From Bacteroidia bacterium (GTDB lineage Bacteria > Bacteroidota > Bacteroidia > B-17B0 > Aurantibacillaceae), in NCBI GenBank assembly GCA_026414605.1, contig JAOAIP010000026.1, positions 1 to 54,647 on the forward strand: 54,647 nt of DNA, given 5' to 3'. A program made the translations under genes and the position numbers. Positions 10,635 through 16,721 of this stretch are shown piece by piece. Positions within the stretch are counted from its first letter, which is position 1; each line of letters begins with the position of its first letter. The notes under the pieces were generated by a model that was not told the DNA's origin, did not search any database, and saw only the letters and a list, made by a program, of their open reading frames with translations.

Positions 10635-11591
10635 CTACAATCTTTGAAACTCAAAAGTAGGATATCCTTTTTCACCACCGCTACTATAAAAATCAATAAA
10701 TCTAAGTTTGTAGTAATATCCCTTTTGGTCTTTAATGATGTAAAATAAATTTGGTTTAATAACATAAGAAGATGAAGAGAAATCATATACTTTCCAATCA
10801 TATCCAATCGTATTAAGAGAATTACTTAAGTTAAACTTAATAGCATCAGAATAGGTTGCATTATCAAAATTGGAATTTGATAACTTTAATGCAAAAGTTT
10901 GATAACGATTCAAAATTGTTCCCACAACGAGATATGGTTGAGTTAATTTTTCAGTATATTGAGAAAATTGAAGGTCCCATGTTTTTTTAGGTGGTTCAAT
11001 ACTTAAAACGGTTTTTTGAGAGTAAGAAAATCCAATTACATTATAATTTGTATCTAATGGAATCGTGTATTGAAAATAGGTAGTATCATTTACATTAGAA
11101 ACAGCAATTTCAAAAGAGGAAGATGTGTAATTTAATACTTTAAATTTAAAGAACCCTAGGAAATTTCCATTTTCGTCATATCCACGACTTATGATATATA
11201 TATTGCTAGGTTGATTCCACCATTTTCCTATAGACGTGCTGTCAGTGTTTCCAGTAGGTGAATCAAATGTTTTATTTTTTTCAAATCCGATGGTGTCGGT
11301 TACACTTTTCCATTGAGTTGAATTTGTCAGATAGGCATACATAAGCTTTGAACTATTCAAAAAAATGTTTTTATCTTTACACGAAAAAGCTAGATCCCAA
11401 GTGGTTTTTAATTGTGAATACACAATTTTATTTTCCTGTAATGAAAAGAAGATCTGATATTTATAAGAAGAAGTTAAAGGAATAACAGCTTTTTGTAAAT
11501 TTCCCGATGAGTGTTTTGGAACAGGTAATTCCTTTTTCTTGCAGGAATAAATAAAAGATATTAAAACAAAAATAAAAATTCTTATCTTCAT
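10635..11591 (-). CDS. HmuY-like haemophore lipoprotein
   Basis: The 318-aa product starts with a lipoprotein signal (MKIRIFIFVLISFIYSCKKK; Cys17). The body follows the HmuY layout of Bacteroidota haem-binding proteins: paired blocks with TTWDLAFSCKDKNIFLNSS and KKTWDLQFSQYTEKLTQPYLVVG, then NTIGYDWKVYDFSS, YVIKPNLFYIIKDQKGYYYKLRFIDFY and a C-terminal TFEFQRL. HmuY binds haem at the cell surface and passes it to a TonB receptor; binding residues cannot be assigned here. Its ATG overlaps the TGA of the receptor gene by 4 bp (ATGA), so the two are translationally coupled. It is the last gene of the operon. Confidence 0.85.
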   Translation of the reverse strand: MKIRIFIFVLISFIYSCKKKELPVPKHSSGNLQKAVIPLTSSYKYQIFFSLQENKIVYSQLKTTWDLAFSCKDKNIFLNSSKLMYAYLTNSTQWKSVTDTIGFEKNKTFDSPTGNTDSTSIGKWWNQPSNIYIISRGYDENGNFLGFFKFKVLNYTSSSFEIAVSNVNDTTYFQYTIPLDTNYNVIGFSYSQKTVLSIEPPKKTWDLQFSQYTEKLTQPYLVVGTILNRYQTFALKLSNSNFDNATYSDAIKFNLSNSLNTIGYDWKVYDFSSSSYVIKPNLFYIIKDQKGYYYKLRFIDFYSSGGEKGYPTFEFQRL

Positions 11592-13825
11592 AATTTTAAA
11601 TTTAATTGGAAAAAGTAAGTTCTGCCGTTGGATATAAGAACGCTGTTTCCCGAACTGTGAACACCACCGATTGCCATATTCAAATTGGTAACATTTAAAA
11701 TGTTTTTTATTCCTGAAATAAAACTAATTTTTTCATTAAATAACTTTTGTGATACCGTAATATCTATTTGAGTAAAAGAACTGGCGAATTTTATCTTATA
11801 ATCCGATTCATTGTTTTTGACATAATATGGGGTGTTTCCATTGTATTTAACAAACAAATTTAAAGCAGTTTTTTGGAATAAATAAGATAAAGATCCCGAG
11901 TATTCAGGATAAAAGTAAAATTCTGATTTGGGATACAGATAATTTATTCCTGTGTAACTTATGTTTGTGTTAAGTTGCATTTTACTTGAATTCCATTTGA
12001 TATTAAGACCATTTCCAATGATATGTATTTTATCAATATTGATATAAGTATATTGTAATCCATTATCCGATGCCAAGCGTATAAGATTTTTGACGTAATT
12101 TGAAAAAAATATTAAACTCATTTCAAAATTACTTTTTTTATGTTTTGAATAATTTATAGACAAATCAATATAATCAGATGTTTCAGGAGAAAGATTTTTG
12201 TTACCAATGATATTGTGATTGATATCAATAAAATTAAGGTATAATTCTTTAATTGACGGAGACCTGAAACCTTTTGAATATGCCGTAAGTATGTAAAGAG
12301 AAGTTAAAGAAATGTCATTAAATTTATTTGAAAGAATATATTTGTAATGAAAAGACGGAATAAAATACATTCCATACTTTGAATTAAAACCCAATCTTAG
12401 AGATGGCTTCAGGTCATTTTTTGAGTATTGGATTCTTGAAATAATGAATGCAGCATAATCTTGAATGGATTGTGTTCTTTTTTCAATAATAGAACTATAT
12501 GCTTTTTCATTTGACACATCATATCCTAATTCTATTGAATAATTTTTAAATTTTACCTGTAAAGAACCTCTGCTCATTACAGATTCGTAATTTGATGTAT
12601 CGTGGTCTGATGAATTTGGAGTAAGTATTTTATTAAGCGTTGTTAGATCATTAAAATAAGCGTTTTTCAATCTTCTGTAATTGCTTCTTGCCAGTATAAA
12701 ATCAAGCGTTTTCTTTGAATTTAATGCCCCATGAATGAATAATCTTTGATTGTCTCTTCGTGTTTTATAGTAATTATCTATTGCCGTTTCAAAATAGGGT
12801 GATCTTGGTTTTCCCTTATCTTCTATTTCCTCATCAAAAAAATCAGCATTAAAGGTTACTTTTAATTTTTTTATGTAGATATTGTTATTCATAGTGATGA
12901 AATATTGCTCCTTCGGTTTCCACAATTTGTATCTTGTTGAATCGGCAATTTTTTCTTTTTCAATGTAGAATGGCTTTTCACTGATATTCCAACCATCAAA
13001 GTAATTCCTGCCGCCTGATAAAATAAATTCATATTTATTAAATTTTTTTTGGAGTTGAAAATTCGTATTGTATGTCCCATTACTTTCATAATACACATTT
13101 GAATTTATACTGAATGACTTATTCCCGGATGATTTTGTAATGATATTTATAACTCCACCTGTTGCATCAGTTCCATATTTCACTGCCATCGGACCCTGTA
13201 TAATTTCAATTCTTTCAACGTTGTTTGTATTGATTTGTGATAGATCAATATTTCCATTAAGTCTTCCGATAACAGGAACGCCATCTATCAATATTTTTAC
13301 AGATTGACCGGATAATCCCATAAAATTAAGATTAGAACCAAGAACCGGATCTTGCTGAATTCTGAATAAATTACTATTAGTAAGGACGTCTCTGACATTT
13401 TGTGCGCCCATTTTTTCTATTTTATCTGATGATATAACTTCAACTCTATGAAGAATATTTCTCTTAGAGGTGTTTGTAATTTCACCGGTGATAATTACTT
13501 CTTCCAGATTATAGGATAATTTTTTTAAATACACCCTGTACTCTTCAAATACTGATTTTATTGTATCAGTGAAATTTTCATAACCATAATAGAATGCACG
13601 AATGATAAACGGTAAAGTAAAATTTTCTTTAATTTTAATTTCACCTCTTTCATTAGCAAGATATTCATTACAAATTTTTTTGTTTATATCACAAACTTGA
13701 ATTTGTGCAAAAGGTAACGCGTTATTATCGTCCCTATCATAAACAAAAATTGTTTGACAAAATAATTTATTATTCAATAGAAGGCATATCACATATAATA
13801 TGAATAAAATTCTTTGTATTTGCAT
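11588..13825 (-). CDS. TonB-dependent outer-membrane receptor (HmuR-like)
   Basis: Receptor for energised uptake across the outer membrane, probably of haem or another tetrapyrrole given the flanking HmuY-like genes. I start it at the ATG at 13825, which gives a signal peptide (MQIQRILFILYVICLLLNNKLFCQ) and leaves only 2 bp after the upstream gene's stop; the frame extends further upstream but overlaps that gene. After a short carboxypeptidase-regulatory-like segment comes the plug (NLEEVIITGEI, VRDVLTNSN, VKILIDGVPVIGRLNG, VERIEIIQGPMAVKYGTDATGGVINIITK), then a 22-strand-type barrel ending in FFQLNLKL. About 745 aa, normal for the family. The TonB box is not obvious. Confidence 0.93.
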   Translation of the reverse strand: MQIQRILFILYVICLLLNNKLFCQTIFVYDRDDNNALPFAQIQVCDINKKICNEYLANERGEIKIKENFTLPFIIRAFYYGYENFTDTIKSVFEEYRVYLKKLSYNLEEVIITGEITNTSKRNILHRVEVISSDKIEKMGAQNVRDVLTNSNLFRIQQDPVLGSNLNFMGLSGQSVKILIDGVPVIGRLNGNIDLSQINTNNVERIEIIQGPMAVKYGTDATGGVINIITKSSGNKSFSINSNVYYESNGTYNTNFQLQKKFNKYEFILSGGRNYFDGWNISEKPFYIEKEKIADSTRYKLWKPKEQYFITMNNNIYIKKLKVTFNADFFDEEIEDKGKPRSPYFETAIDNYYKTRRDNQRLFIHGALNSKKTLDFILARSNYRRLKNAYFNDLTTLNKILTPNSSDHDTSNYESVMSRGSLQVKFKNYSIELGYDVSNEKAYSSIIEKRTQSIQDYAAFIISRIQYSKNDLKPSLRLGFNSKYGMYFIPSFHYKYILSNKFNDISLTSLYILTAYSKGFRSPSIKELYLNFIDINHNIIGNKNLSPETSDYIDLSINYSKHKKSNFEMSLIFFSNYVKNLIRLASDNGLQYTYINIDKIHIIGNGLNIKWNSSKMQLNTNISYTGINYLYPKSEFYFYPEYSGSLSYLFQKTALNLFVKYNGNTPYYVKNNESDYKIKFASSFTQIDITVSQKLFNEKISFISGIKNILNVTNLNMAIGGVHSSGNSVLISNGRTYFFQLNLKL

Positions 13826-13827
13826 TA

Positions 13828-14421
13828 CTAATTTGTTTGAAAAAGGATAAAATACAAAATGGCTAAAAACGGAGGAACCAGACCTGATAATAATAACCAT
13901 TTTCCTCTTCCGCTCAATCCATACTTTCCTTTCAAAATAAAAAGTCCAGTAAGAGTCAAGATAATCAATAGTATTCCAAAAATGTCCGAAACCCATTTCC
14001 ATCCTCGAACAGAGTTTCTATGAAGTAAATTTGTTTCATAAATTACAGGCCGTTTTGATACTTTTTCATAGACCCCATAAGAGTAATTAAGGTATATGTG
14101 CAAGCTGGCATTATCATAATAAATTTTAATTTGAGATGAGGTAGGTCTATCCCATAATTTAATTTTTTCTTCATTAACTTTGTTCGAGATAATTTCAACA
14201 ATTTTTTTTGTATATTTATTTTCTTCTTTAAGTCCCATGATATAATTCGGCTCAATCTTAACAGTATCTCTTCTTATTATAAAATCAGGATTAAAATCAT
14301 TGATATGATTTAATGCAATACCGGAAATACAATATATTATTATTAGTCCTGAAAGAAAATAACCAATATCTCTGTGCCATTCAATAATAATTTTTCTAAT
14401 AGATTTTTTAGTCGGAATCAT
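13828..14421 (-). CDS. PepSY-associated TM-helix protein
   Basis: The 197-aa inner-membrane protein has a first transmembrane helix at about 16-36 after a basic IRKIIIEWHRDIGY start, a periplasmic middle part of PepSY type, then two more helices near the C terminus (about 140-162 and 173-193) separated by LKGKYGLSGRGKW. HR and WHRDIGYF resemble the haem-related or redox PepSY proteins found next to siderophore and haem receptors in Bacteroidota. Its role there is thought to be in iron reduction or coupling to the inner membrane; this is an inference from family context. It is 20 bp from the upstream CbiX gene and 2 bp from the receptor gene. Confidence 0.85.
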   Translation of the reverse strand: MIPTKKSIRKIIIEWHRDIGYFLSGLIIIYCISGIALNHINDFNPDFIIRRDTVKIEPNYIMGLKEENKYTKKIVEIISNKVNEEKIKLWDRPTSSQIKIYYDNASLHIYLNYSYGVYEKVSKRPVIYETNLLHRNSVRGWKWVSDIFGILLIILTLTGLFILKGKYGLSGRGKWLLLSGLVPPFLAILYFILFQTN

Positions 14422-14441
14422 AGGATTTTATAAATTTTAAC

Positions 14442-15410
14442 CTAAATGTTAGTGTTACTTGGCGATTTATTTATCTCTTCAACATACTTGTTTGTTATAG
14501 CATAAATCCAACCTTCTAAATTTGAATCCGGTAATATGGCATCGGGCTTATATTTTACTCTTTGTTGATAGTCCTTAATTTTTTCAATTCCGCCTCCGAT
14601 TATTTTTATCTGAAACATTTCGTCATGGGCAACAAGCACAGGTATAACAATGGCTTTTTCTTTTGTTTGTAATACTTTATGAATGGCTTTTGTTGTTTCT
14701 TCCGGGTTGTAATGAACCAAATGTCCACACCATCCGTAAGAATATTCAGATATTTTTAAACTATCTTTAATAAATTTTCCGATTTCGTCAAAAAGATTTT
14801 CCCATTCTTTCAGATATCTTTGATCGCCGTAACCAATCAATACCAATCCTTCTTCTTCCGGCTTTTGTGATAAATTTTTTACACGACGCAGAATATTTTT
14901 TTTAAGTAAATCTGTAAAATCTAAAAGAGGGGTTATATGCACTGTTGATTTGGGAAAATATCTTTTAATGTTTTCAATCTTTAATAGCTCTAAAGATTCC
15001 GGATCTTCTTTAAGTCCAAGAATAGTAGGAATATCCTCAAATGTATGAGGGGATACGGTAAGAAAAACAGGAATAATGATAACATCACTGCAACCTATGC
15101 TATCCATTTTTGCAACCTGAGTGGCGATAGACGGTTCCGTATACTCCATAAATGCAGTGGCAACCGATACTACATTCGGAATTTTCATAAGAGAATCTCT
15201 TACTTTTTTTTCTAAATCTAATAATGCATTCCTCCATGTTTCAGAACGAGACCCGTGATTTGCTAATACAATACCGATTCTTTTTGTCTGTGATCTATCC
15301 TGTAAGACAAACTTGTTTTCAGAATTGGAAAATTTGCATTGATAAATTATAAAGAGATTTAATAAAATGCTAGATGCCAATATTATTTTTTTCAATGTTT
15401 TTGTTTTCAT
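14442..15410 (-). CDS. Membrane-anchored two-lobed CbiX-like chelatase
   Basis: CbiX-type enzymes insert metals (Co, Fe, Ni) into sirohydrochlorin. This 322-aa protein carries an N-terminal hydrophobic segment (about 8-25, ILASSILLNLFIIYQC) that reads as a signal anchor or atypical lipoprotein signal, so it is predicted outside the cytoplasm, unlike normal CbiX. The first lobe has the expected catalytic ANHGSR at about 50 and PVFLTVSPHTFEDIP at about 117-131. The second lobe has GYGDQRYLKEW where GHG is usual, and PVLVAHDEMFQ with its own His. It sits inside an HmuY/TonB-receptor operon, 6 bp after the first HmuY-like gene, which suggests metal removal from or exchange on imported tetrapyrroles. 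Confidence 0.87.
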   Translation of the reverse strand: MKTKTLKKIILASSILLNLFIIYQCKFSNSENKFVLQDRSQTKRIGIVLANHGSRSETWRNALLDLEKKVRDSLMKIPNVVSVATAFMEYTEPSIATQVAKMDSIGCSDVIIIPVFLTVSPHTFEDIPTILGLKEDPESLELLKIENIKRYFPKSTVHITPLLDFTDLLKKNILRRVKNLSQKPEEEGLVLIGYGDQRYLKEWENLFDEIGKFIKDSLKISEYSYGWCGHLVHYNPEETTKAIHKVLQTKEKAIVIPVLVAHDEMFQIKIIGGGIEKIKDYQQRVKYKPDAILPDSNLEGWIYAITNKYVEEINKSPSNTNI

Positions 15411-15416
15411 AATGAG

Positions 15417-16652
15417 TTATTTTTTAATAAATTTGATGATTGATTTTTGATTTTTTGTAGTAACTGAGAGGAAATACAAGCCGGGTGTAAGCATATCAGT
15501 ACTGATTCTCAAAGTGAAGGGATACATACCGGTATCAATTGATTCCAGTATCCATTTTTTACCATCTGGACTAAATATAGATAGTTCTTTTATTTCATTA
15601 AATTCGTTAGTATCAAAACTAATCAGTTGAATTATATCTTCAACAGGGTTGGGGTATAACATTAATGTGTTGTTTGAATTTGAAAATTCAGAAACACTAA
15701 CAGCACTTACTTTTTGTTTAATAAAAATGTAATTACCATTAGCACTTCCGCCAAAACCGGTAAATATTACTTTCCATATATCACCCTGTTTGCTCTTTAC
15801 AAAATATACCAATGAATCTTCTATTTGCCAGCTTCCTGAATAATTTTTCCAGTTATATCCGATAGTATTTATCGCTGTATTAAATGAGTGATTATACCAT
15901 TGCATATAAGATGTATCAACAGGATATACTTTTACCGCTGTAACACCTTTGTTCATCAATACACCCGTTACATTATAAGGTGAAGGTACAAAAGCGGTAT
16001 ATTGAGTAAATAATAAATCCCATTGAGAAGAAGGTGGCTCTCTGTCAACAACACCGTTTGTTTGAATAGAATAATAAATAAGCGTCTTTGTATTATAAGG
16101 AGTTTTGGATATGCTAACATTTTGCAGATTATTCCCGTTTAAGTCGCTGTATTGAAAGTAATACGTTCCACTTGCTAATTTTTTAATCCATATTTTTTTG
16201 TAAGAATTATTAGATAGTTTAATAACATAGATGGAATCACCTATAACCTGGTGAGTGATAGTATTATAGATACCCCAGCCCAAATCATTTGGATTATTTG
16301 TTTTACCTTTGTTAAAAGCACCAATACTCCACGATGTATCTGAATTGTAGTAAGGTTTCCATGAACTTATTCCGGTAGTATCCATAGTATTCCATGCAGT
16401 TGTATCTCCATTAGGATAGACCCACAATTGGGTTCCTGTTACCGAATTAATAAAAATTCCTGAACCCATGCCAGAAGTTTCAAAAGCAATATCCCAATTA
16501 TTTTTTGGGGAAGAACCTTGTTCATCGTTCTGCAAACTGTACCATTTTTGTAAGGCATATCCGGCACCAATTGATACGGTGTCTTTTGTTATTTGCCCTT
16601 TTGAATAAAGGGATGATAGAAAAAGACCGGCTGCTAAAATTTTCTTAATCAT
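15417..16652 (-). CDS. HmuY-like protein with T9SS type A sorting domain
   Basis: The first gene of the hmu-like operon. I start it at the ATG at 16652 (MIKKILAAGLFLSSLYSKGQ, a signal peptide), giving 411 aa; upstream codons lie in the promoter. The core has the same layout as the lipoprotein at 10635: NNWDIAFETSGMGSGIFINS, SSQWDLLFTQYTAFVPSPYNVTGVLMN and NTIGYNWKNYSGSW, then DSLVYFVKSKQGDIWKVIFTGFG. The last 75 residues are a type IX sorting domain (LMLYPNPVEDIIQLIS ... PGLYFLSVTTKNQKSIIKFIKK). It is thus predicted to be secreted and attached to the surface by T9SS, whereas its paralogue is lipid-anchored. Confidence 0.87.
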   Translation of the reverse strand: MIKKILAAGLFLSSLYSKGQITKDTVSIGAGYALQKWYSLQNDEQGSSPKNNWDIAFETSGMGSGIFINSVTGTQLWVYPNGDTTAWNTMDTTGISSWKPYYNSDTSWSIGAFNKGKTNNPNDLGWGIYNTITHQVIGDSIYVIKLSNNSYKKIWIKKLASGTYYFQYSDLNGNNLQNVSISKTPYNTKTLIYYSIQTNGVVDREPPSSQWDLLFTQYTAFVPSPYNVTGVLMNKGVTAVKVYPVDTSYMQWYNHSFNTAINTIGYNWKNYSGSWQIEDSLVYFVKSKQGDIWKVIFTGFGGSANGNYIFIKQKVSAVSVSEFSNSNNTLMLYPNPVEDIIQLISFDTNEFNEIKELSIFSPDGKKWILESIDTGMYPFTLRISTDMLTPGLYFLSVTTKNQKSIIKFIKK

Positions 16653-16671
16653 AGTTTTCAATTTTTTGAGG

Positions 16672-16679
16672 CAAAAATA
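16672..16679 (-). promoter_or_regulatory. -7 box of the hmu-like operon
   Basis: On the minus strand this reads TATTTTTG, matching TAnnTTTG, 19 bp upstream of the first ATG. An ATTG at 16701-16704, 21 bp further up, could serve as the -33 element. The two palindromes at 16684-16721 occupy exactly the promoter spacer and upstream edge. Confidence 0.65.
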
Positions 16680-16683
16680 CTTA

Positions 16684-16721
16684 TTTAGACCCATTCTAAA
16701 CAATACCTATAAATAGGTATT
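16684..16721. promoter_or_regulatory. Two palindromic operator candidates in the hmu-like promoter
   Basis: Palindrome 1 is TTTAGA-N5-TCTAAA (16684-16700), lying between the -7 box and the presumed -33 element. Palindrome 2 is AATACCTATAAATAGGTATT (16702-16721), two 9-bp arms around AA, overlapping the -33 element. Repressor binding at either would block RNA polymerase, as expected for iron- or haem-controlled uptake genes. The regulator family cannot be named from the sites alone. Confidence 0.6.

Follow-up and report, generated by a model that had tools for sequence, protein, structure and literature searches.

We describe a five-gene operon on the minus strand of a contig from a Bacteroidia bacterium (Aurantibacillaceae; GenBank assembly GCA_026414605.1, contig JAOAIP010000026.1), at positions 10,635 to 16,721 of the 54,647-nucleotide stretch of DNA that was analysed as a whole (hereafter, the window). 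The operon encodes an HmuY-like protein secreted by the type IX secretion system (T9SS), a chelatase-fold protein CbiX, a PepSY_TM-like membrane protein, a TonB receptor and a second HmuY-like protein, a lipoprotein. Its core is a gene pair, the exported CbiX together with PepSY_TM_like_2. We believe with considerable confidence that the operon serves iron acquisition, and it seems quite probable to us that CbiX and the PepSY protein are functional partners. The features are as follows.

16702..16721, minus strand: operator B, AATACC-N8-GGTATT, a perfect palindrome
16684..16700, minus strand: operator A, TTTAGAAT-NN-TTCTAAA with one mismatch, a Fur-family-like inverted repeat
16672..16679, minus strand: -7-like promoter element TATTTTTG, just downstream of operator A, matching TAnnTTTG
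15417..16652, minus strand: hmuY1, HmuY-like secreted protein with a T9SS C-terminal sorting domain, 411 amino acids, ATG start
14442..15410, minus strand: cbiX, two-lobed chelatase of class II with an export leader, probably a lipoprotein (C25)
13828..14421, minus strand: pepSY, PepSY_TM_like_2 membrane protein with 3 predicted transmembrane segments
11588..13825, minus strand: TonB-dependent outer-membrane receptor
10635..11591, minus strand: hmuY2, HmuY-family lipoprotein (C17)

The genes are separated by gaps of 6, 20 and 2 bp and by one 4-bp overlap. These five minus-strand genes and their spacing had been proposed in a first-pass annotation of the same DNA; the coordinates and gaps match exactly, and each family exceeds its Pfam cut-off. 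HmuY1 gives Por_Secre_tail at 44.4 bits and HmuY at 27.6 bits, which barely exceeds the cut-off of 27; CbiX scores 52.1 bits (cut-off 22), PepSY_TM_like_2 61.4 bits (cut-off 27), the plug of the TonB receptor 78.4 bits and the HmuY domain of HmuY2 67.9 bits. Translation of hmuY1 from a TTG at 16703, which would give a longer protein, is unlikely, as the reading frame would then extend into the operators.

A scan of 84,980 species genomes yielded 107 relatives, of which the best 80 were kept as named loci; the search patterns were derived from near relatives of the window, so the counts below are biased to close relatives. A close CbiX is present in 10 of the 87 genomes of the window's order, and the succession HmuY1-CbiX-PepSY-TonB-HmuY2 is repeated in the fully readable loci of that order, with different outer flanks. 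The first-pass annotation had suggested a search for the same five-gene order elsewhere, and it does recur, in 19 of the 80 named loci (13 exactly, and 6 with one or two small genes, e.g., DUF6686, between PepSY and TonB). Considering this recurrence in relatives, the arrangement is not due to chance. No relative was found among the viral contigs searched.

The gene for PepSY_TM_like_2 directly follows cbiX in 67 of the 80 loci. The distance between the two is nearly always from -70 to +15 bp and mostly near 0, so that the genes overlap or abut; no gap exceeds 15 bp. The pair is present in about seven phyla (Bacteroidota, Nitrospirota, Chlorobiota, Calditrichota, Planctomycetota, Myxococcota and Eiseniibacteriota), with the caution that most of these genomes are metagenome bins and single phyla could reflect binning errors. 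HmuY is encoded in the same run in 32 of the 67 loci and a TonB receptor in 37. The first-pass annotation had named the PepSY gene but made no use of its role, and we consider it the decisive partner. That the pair holds together while its surroundings change is a stronger argument than the correlation between export and PepSY, which is as follows. A hydrophobic export leader, mostly with a Cys, is found on CbiX in all 67 loci paired with PepSY, and the 11 leaderless relatives (Chloroflexota, one Armatimonadota and one Ignavibacteriota) all lack PepSY next door. Residue 262 is Tyr in the leaderless proteins and mostly His in the exported ones, and one locus, L090, has an exported CbiX without PepSY.

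Several variants of the surroundings can be mentioned here. The leaderless (cytosolic) orthologues without an adjacent PepSY are those of L075, L077, L079, L086, L093, L094, L096-L098, L100 and L104; for the leaderless CbiX of Anaerolineae, the recurrent neighbours are limited to families common to two or three loci. CbiX-PepSY occurs with a different TonB receptor in the Nitrospira loci L035, L036, L039, L054 and L065, and in some Nitrospira loci a TonB protein is encoded as well, together with a further exported protein resembling chelatases (about 580-660 amino acids, weak CbiX/ferrochelatase matches). In Chlorobiaceae (L102, L103) the order is CbiX-PepSY-CbiX, i.e., one PepSY gene lies between two different exported CbiX paralogues.

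C25, the last residue of the N-terminal segment of CbiX, is invariant in the 8 aligned nearest sequences, and in the wider set a Cys lies within the leader in 64 of 69 leaders; this makes a lipoprotein signal likelier than an anchor. The protein is thus probably a lipoprotein, and its lipobox in the window (IYQ-C) is poor, so we regard the lipidation of this particular protein as probable rather than certain. As to the N-terminal membrane anchor proposed in the first-pass annotation, export is borne out by the leaders, and a simple anchor gives way to a probable lipoprotein signal.

H52, E89 and H122 are invariant in all 79 CbiX sequences compared, the leaderless ones included, and Y194, D196, C228, H230 and D263 are likewise invariant in the exported and leaderless groups. 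The catalytic pair H52/H122, which aligns with H9/H75 of the nickelochelatase CfbA, is located with E89 in the N-lobe; Y194, C228, H230 and D263 are located in the C-lobe. The second-lobe GYG had been taken for a special loss; it is ordinary and no sign of novelty, since two-lobed or fused class II chelatases normally keep the catalytic His pair in one lobe only (PMC7689651).

The AlphaFold model of CbiX has a predicted local distance difference test score (pLDDT) of 90.5, and its structure matches cover most of the protein. The closest is SirB (Z 18.6, root-mean-square deviation 3.7, 240 residues aligned), followed by ferrochelatases (Z 15-16), the periplasmic CbiK-P 2xvx (14.8) and FetB of P. 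gingivalis (9b86, 14.7). The CbiK Pfam score is 15.5 bits, under the cut-off of 26.2, and the family profile searched against PDB finds CfbA and SirB and not CbiK or FetB. Judged by sequence, the protein is CbiX/SirB-like and not CbiK; we would place it in the class II chelatase fold family, apart from SirB or CbiX-L proper in view of its export leader and its uptake-operon context.

In the PepSY protein three His are conserved among the 68 aligned sequences, H16 in 67 and both H39 and H134 in 68; they are candidate haem ligands at the membrane face. Pfam finds PF16357 in all 17 family members and PF03929, weakly, in the same 17, and phmmer of PepSY alone against PDB gave nothing useful. The characterised PepSY_TM proteins are periplasmic metal reductases that use His-ligated haems (PMC13038864), and XusC is a PepSY reductase in a Bacteroides system of capture protein, TonB receptor and reductase (PMC13142918). 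With the family and the conserved His as the grounds, the operon's PepSY protein is a putative haem-b membrane reductase.

The HmuY and TonB receptor genes co-occur in the one operon, and the ligand of the HmuY proteins characterised to date is haem or porphyrin (PMC12106395). The alignment of the HmuY1 family contains Por_Secre_tail in 21 of 21 sequences and an HmuY match in 16 of 21; in HmuY2, C17 is invariant in all 23. The HmuY2 family profile matches solved HmuY structures (8b6a, 8.6e-21; 3h8t, 9.9e-17); phmmer of HmuY2 alone against PDB gave nothing useful. The profile matches fall in two blocks with a long stretch between, and HmuY2 looks like an HmuY with an insertion of more than 100 residues. 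The identification of both proteins as HmuY-like in the first-pass annotation is thus supported at the sequence level for each; at the level of the fold model, HmuY1 matched a T9SS tail only. The TonB receptor scores with B12-receptor models nearly as well as with haem-receptor models.

The operators point to the metal that is involved. Upstream of the hmuY1-cbiX operons, B occurs in 15 of 22 and A in 13 of 22, where the background is about 0.03 per 350 bp, an enrichment that is somewhat flattering as the motifs were derived from the same 22 operon sequences. The tests that follow are independent of that derivation. A perfect B occurs at two sites only in the whole of the bacterium's own genome (reversed control, 0): upstream of this operon and upstream of a FecA-like TonB receptor, where it adjoins an A-like site; the same-genus counterpart of that receptor also has A and B. 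The feoA-feoB genes of the own genome are directly preceded by a B with one mismatch, and feoAB is likewise preceded by B (0-1 mismatch) in 7 of the 12 other cassette genomes. Of the suf genes, sufA-sufB of the own genome has an A in front of it, and sufA of another genome, G025, a B. As the operators are common to feoAB, the FecA-like receptor and the suf genes, the metal handled by the operon is very likely iron, with FeoB as its probable way in. Operator A resembles Fur-family sites, and TAnnTTTG is the consensus of the -7 promoter element of Bacteroidota. No published account of operators A and B was found in the literature searched.

In five Chitinophagaceae-like loci a long conserved hairpin, whose GGGAGCAAGA loop is invariant, takes the place of the operators upstream of hmuY1 (L067:6497-6590, L080:6522-6616, L089:1639-1734, L092:6504-6596, L087:6521-6615). 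Double changes are observed in 11 of the 34 predicted pairs across the 5 sequences, and there is no Rfam match; the hairpin is possibly a cis-regulatory RNA of a new type.

The genome context concerns the way in which the iron enters the cell. FeoB is present in all 13 cassette genomes searched, and the own ferrochelatase HemH in 12 of them, including the own genome, so that import of the ring is not needed there. FecCD permease is absent from the own genome (96% complete) and from five other cassette genomes; the first-pass annotation had noted the lack of an hmuUV-type permease in the window, which thus extends to the FecCD family across the whole genome. Without FecCD, ring import through this route is impossible, and Fe(II) import through FeoB is possible. 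That the metal rather than the ring is carried in, as was proposed, is probable, considering the operators common to the operon and feoAB. CobN/HmuS (PF02514) was not found in the own and 12 other cassette genomes, with positive controls, and the haem oxygenase PF01126 had no match in the 13 cassette genomes; other haem-degrading families were not searched. A mutual avoidance of CobN and CbiX within the class was considered too: CobN occurs in 9 of 396 genomes and a strong CbiX match in none of the 9, and the expected overlap is only about half a genome, so the comparison is uninformative.

Ten more genomes of the same order have HmuY and lack CbiX. In all 8 of these CbiX-less genomes that were examined, the same operon carries an exported DUF6607 protein in the CbiX-PepSY slot (L193:6111-7067, L196:2575-3573; equivalents in L192, L194, L195 and L197-L199). 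Two of the proteins match DUF6607 in Pfam with E-values of 2.7e-109 and 3.2e-106, the other six being 62-82% identical to the first. HmuY1, TonB and HmuY2 of these operons are about 33-44% identical to the proteins of the window, and sites resembling A and/or B are found upstream as well. DUF6607 was found at none of the CbiX loci and is not mentioned in the literature searched. Two unrelated modules, CbiX-PepSY and DUF6607, thus occupy one slot among the same partners and behind similar operators, as would be expected of alternative ways to process one ligand. This also corrects the view that CbiX simply takes the place of the CobN-type HmuS: the replacement is not one-for-one, as DUF6607 fills the same slot in sister genomes.

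The DUF6607 operons sometimes add a DoxX-like protein, DUF6686 or a hemerythrin-like protein. Hemerythrin-like inserts with weak Pfam matches occur in both variants (L024:870-1712 with CbiX, L195:3731-4465 with DUF6607). Several operons of either variant encode DUF6686, a small Cys-containing protein, immediately ahead of the TonB receptor (L067:9565-9906, L193:5573-5908 and others), and a gene for a LuxR-type response regulator is often directly upstream of hmuY1 in both (L192:671-1318, L050:5753-6472 and others).

We propose the following mechanism. The secreted HmuY1 and the surface lipoprotein HmuY2 would capture the ligand, which the TonB receptor would carry into the periplasm; there the exported CbiX would bind it in the cleft between its two lobes. 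The PepSY_TM protein, as a putative haem-b membrane reductase, would donate electrons to Fe(III), and Fe(II) would be removed with the help of H52/H122, i.e., by the ferrochelatase reaction in reverse, and would reach the cytoplasm through FeoB. The computation establishes the genes and their conservation, the export signal, the pairing, the chelatase fold and the operators in common with feoAB; haem as the ligand, metal removal by CbiX, electron donation by PepSY and entry through FeoB are inferred. We presume that the substrate is of the haem type (haem or a closely related iron tetrapyrrole), which appears probable. The full scheme, with catalysis by CbiX and with iron taken from haem or a related tetrapyrrole without cytoplasmic import of the ring, we regard as nearly balanced, with the odds tilted slightly in its favour. 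A broader generalization, that the CbiX lipoprotein and PepSY_TM form a two-part periplasmic reductive de-chelatase with a dedicated electron donor across about seven phyla, and that DUF6607 is an unrelated equivalent in sister lineages, is tentative, and we would put its chances somewhat below even.

Several observations weigh against this proposal. The leaderless relatives form one supported clade in the tree, so export, PepSY linkage and residue 262 split once and do not amount to many independent coincidences. In about half of the loci the pair stands without HmuY in the same run, and in Nitrospira the genes ahead of it encode a different TonB receptor and a regulator whose DNA-binding domain is of the OmpR type; the substrate may thus differ among lineages. 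For HmuY1 the model is poor (pLDDT 71, low at 217-309), and no HmuY structure was among its matches. The parts aligned to HmuY of P. gingivalis do not clearly retain its axial His pair, which leaves haem binding by the operon's HmuY proteins presumptive. PepSY has three conserved His only, so that one haem at most is obvious.

Alternative explanations take up some of the same evidence. CbiX may be no enzyme at all, only a periplasmic lipoprotein that binds haem or porphyrin as a shuttle or store, with PepSY alone reducing and releasing the iron as in XusABC, which has no chelatase and makes do with a TonB receptor, a PepSY reductase and a lipoprotein for capture. CbiK-P of Desulfovibrio (2xvx) is likewise a periplasmic protein of the same fold, and it is reported to bind haem. 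A mere binder would be expected to lose the catalytic His pair and Glu, whereas these are invariant in all 79 sequences, including the leaderless ones; we consider this explanation unlikely. Somewhat more unlikely in our opinion is a non-porphyrin ferric complex (xenosiderophore-like) as the substrate, CbiX then being a ferrous-iron acceptor or chaperone beside a PepSY siderophore reductase. PepSY_TM proteins are indeed best known as ferrisiderophore reductases (PMC13038864, PMC13142918), a second pair of TonB receptor and PepSY_TM adjoins some loci (L053), and the operators indicate only that the metal is iron; yet the ligands of the known HmuY proteins are haem or porphyrin (PMC12106395), and it is not obvious what a tetrapyrrole-chelatase fold would do in the reduction of a siderophore.

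A further alternative is the opposite reaction, in which CbiX would insert or exchange a metal in a scavenged porphyrin: FetB, which has the same fold, is an exported chelatase on which the production of manganese protoporphyrin IX is reported to depend (review PMC13402209). This we hold to be quite improbable, as the operators common with feoAB and suf indicate iron supply, and the tight pairing with a reductase-like protein suits the removal of Fe(III) better than the insertion of a divalent ion. The handling of cobalamin or cobalt by a BtuB-like receptor and a cobalt-type chelatase would agree with the receptor's closeness to B12-receptor models and with the existence of cobaltochelatases among CbiX proteins. 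It is nonetheless very improbable: no cobalamin riboswitch was found in the window or in the loci of nine relatives, the own genome has no FecCD (BtuC-type) permease, and the operators are those of iron genes.

Among known systems, the nearest experimentally supported analogue in logic of the proposed de-chelation is HmuS. The hmu operon (HmuYRSTUV, Bacteroides/Porphyromonas) similarly combines HmuY-type capture and a TonB receptor with a chelatase that faces the periplasm and releases iron reductively, a role shown for HmuS and proposed here; its HmuS is a 160-kDa class I protein of the CobN type, whereas a class II CbiX lipoprotein is encoded here, with its own PepSY protein, two HmuY proteins (one T9SS-secreted) and no HmuT/U/V. 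The Iht/Fet system of P. gingivalis (IhtB = FetB) shares an exported lipoprotein with the two-lobed class II chelatase fold and a TonB receptor encoded alongside. It differs in that IhtB/FetB is of the CbiK type by sequence, here the CbiX/SirB type, and comes with the ATP-binding cassette importer IhtCDE; no PepSY or HmuY is reported for it, and IhtB production is reported not to be PgFur-regulated. CbiK-P of Desulfovibrio vulgaris is also an exported class II chelatase of the same fold (2xvx/2xvz), of the CbiK lineage; we know of no pairing of it with PepSY. XusABC resembles the operon in its surface capture protein, TonB receptor and PepSY inner-membrane protein, with iron freed as Fe(II) (PMC13142918), and differs in having DUF4374 as the capture protein and no chelatase, in place of HmuY and CbiX; DUF4374 has no Pfam match in the operon proteins. 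SirB and CbiX-L share the fold and the catalytic His pair in the N-lobe but are cytoplasmic enzymes of sirohydrochlorin biosynthesis, unlike the exported CbiX of an uptake operon. The HmuY1-DUF6607-TonB-HmuY2 operon has the same flanking genes and similar A/B operators, with DUF6607 (with or without the DoxX-like protein) replacing CbiX-PepSY.

Exported class II chelatases are thus already known, IhtB/FetB near a TonB receptor and the periplasmic CbiK-P, and an exported chelatase encoded with a TonB receptor is not new as such. No paper that brings PepSY together with a chelatase or sirohydrochlorin was found in the literature searched. As far as this literature shows, what is new is the presence of a lipoprotein of the CbiX type in an hmu-like operon, the constant coupling of this protein to PepSY, the common iron operators and the swap with DUF6607.

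How bacteria free the iron of haem outside the cytoplasm without oxygen, and with which reductant, is open even for HmuS; demetallation of the HmuS type requires a reductant whose physiological origin is unresolved (PMC12583661, PMC13227078). A directly testable answer is offered by a chelatase gene that keeps company with a membrane-reductase-like gene of its own, and the slot swap gives the DUF6607 family its first testable role. HmuS is missing from the cassette genomes tested, and some of them have no importer of the FecCD type either. For many environmental Bacteroidota and Nitrospira, we believe, the operon would represent an additional way of harvesting iron.

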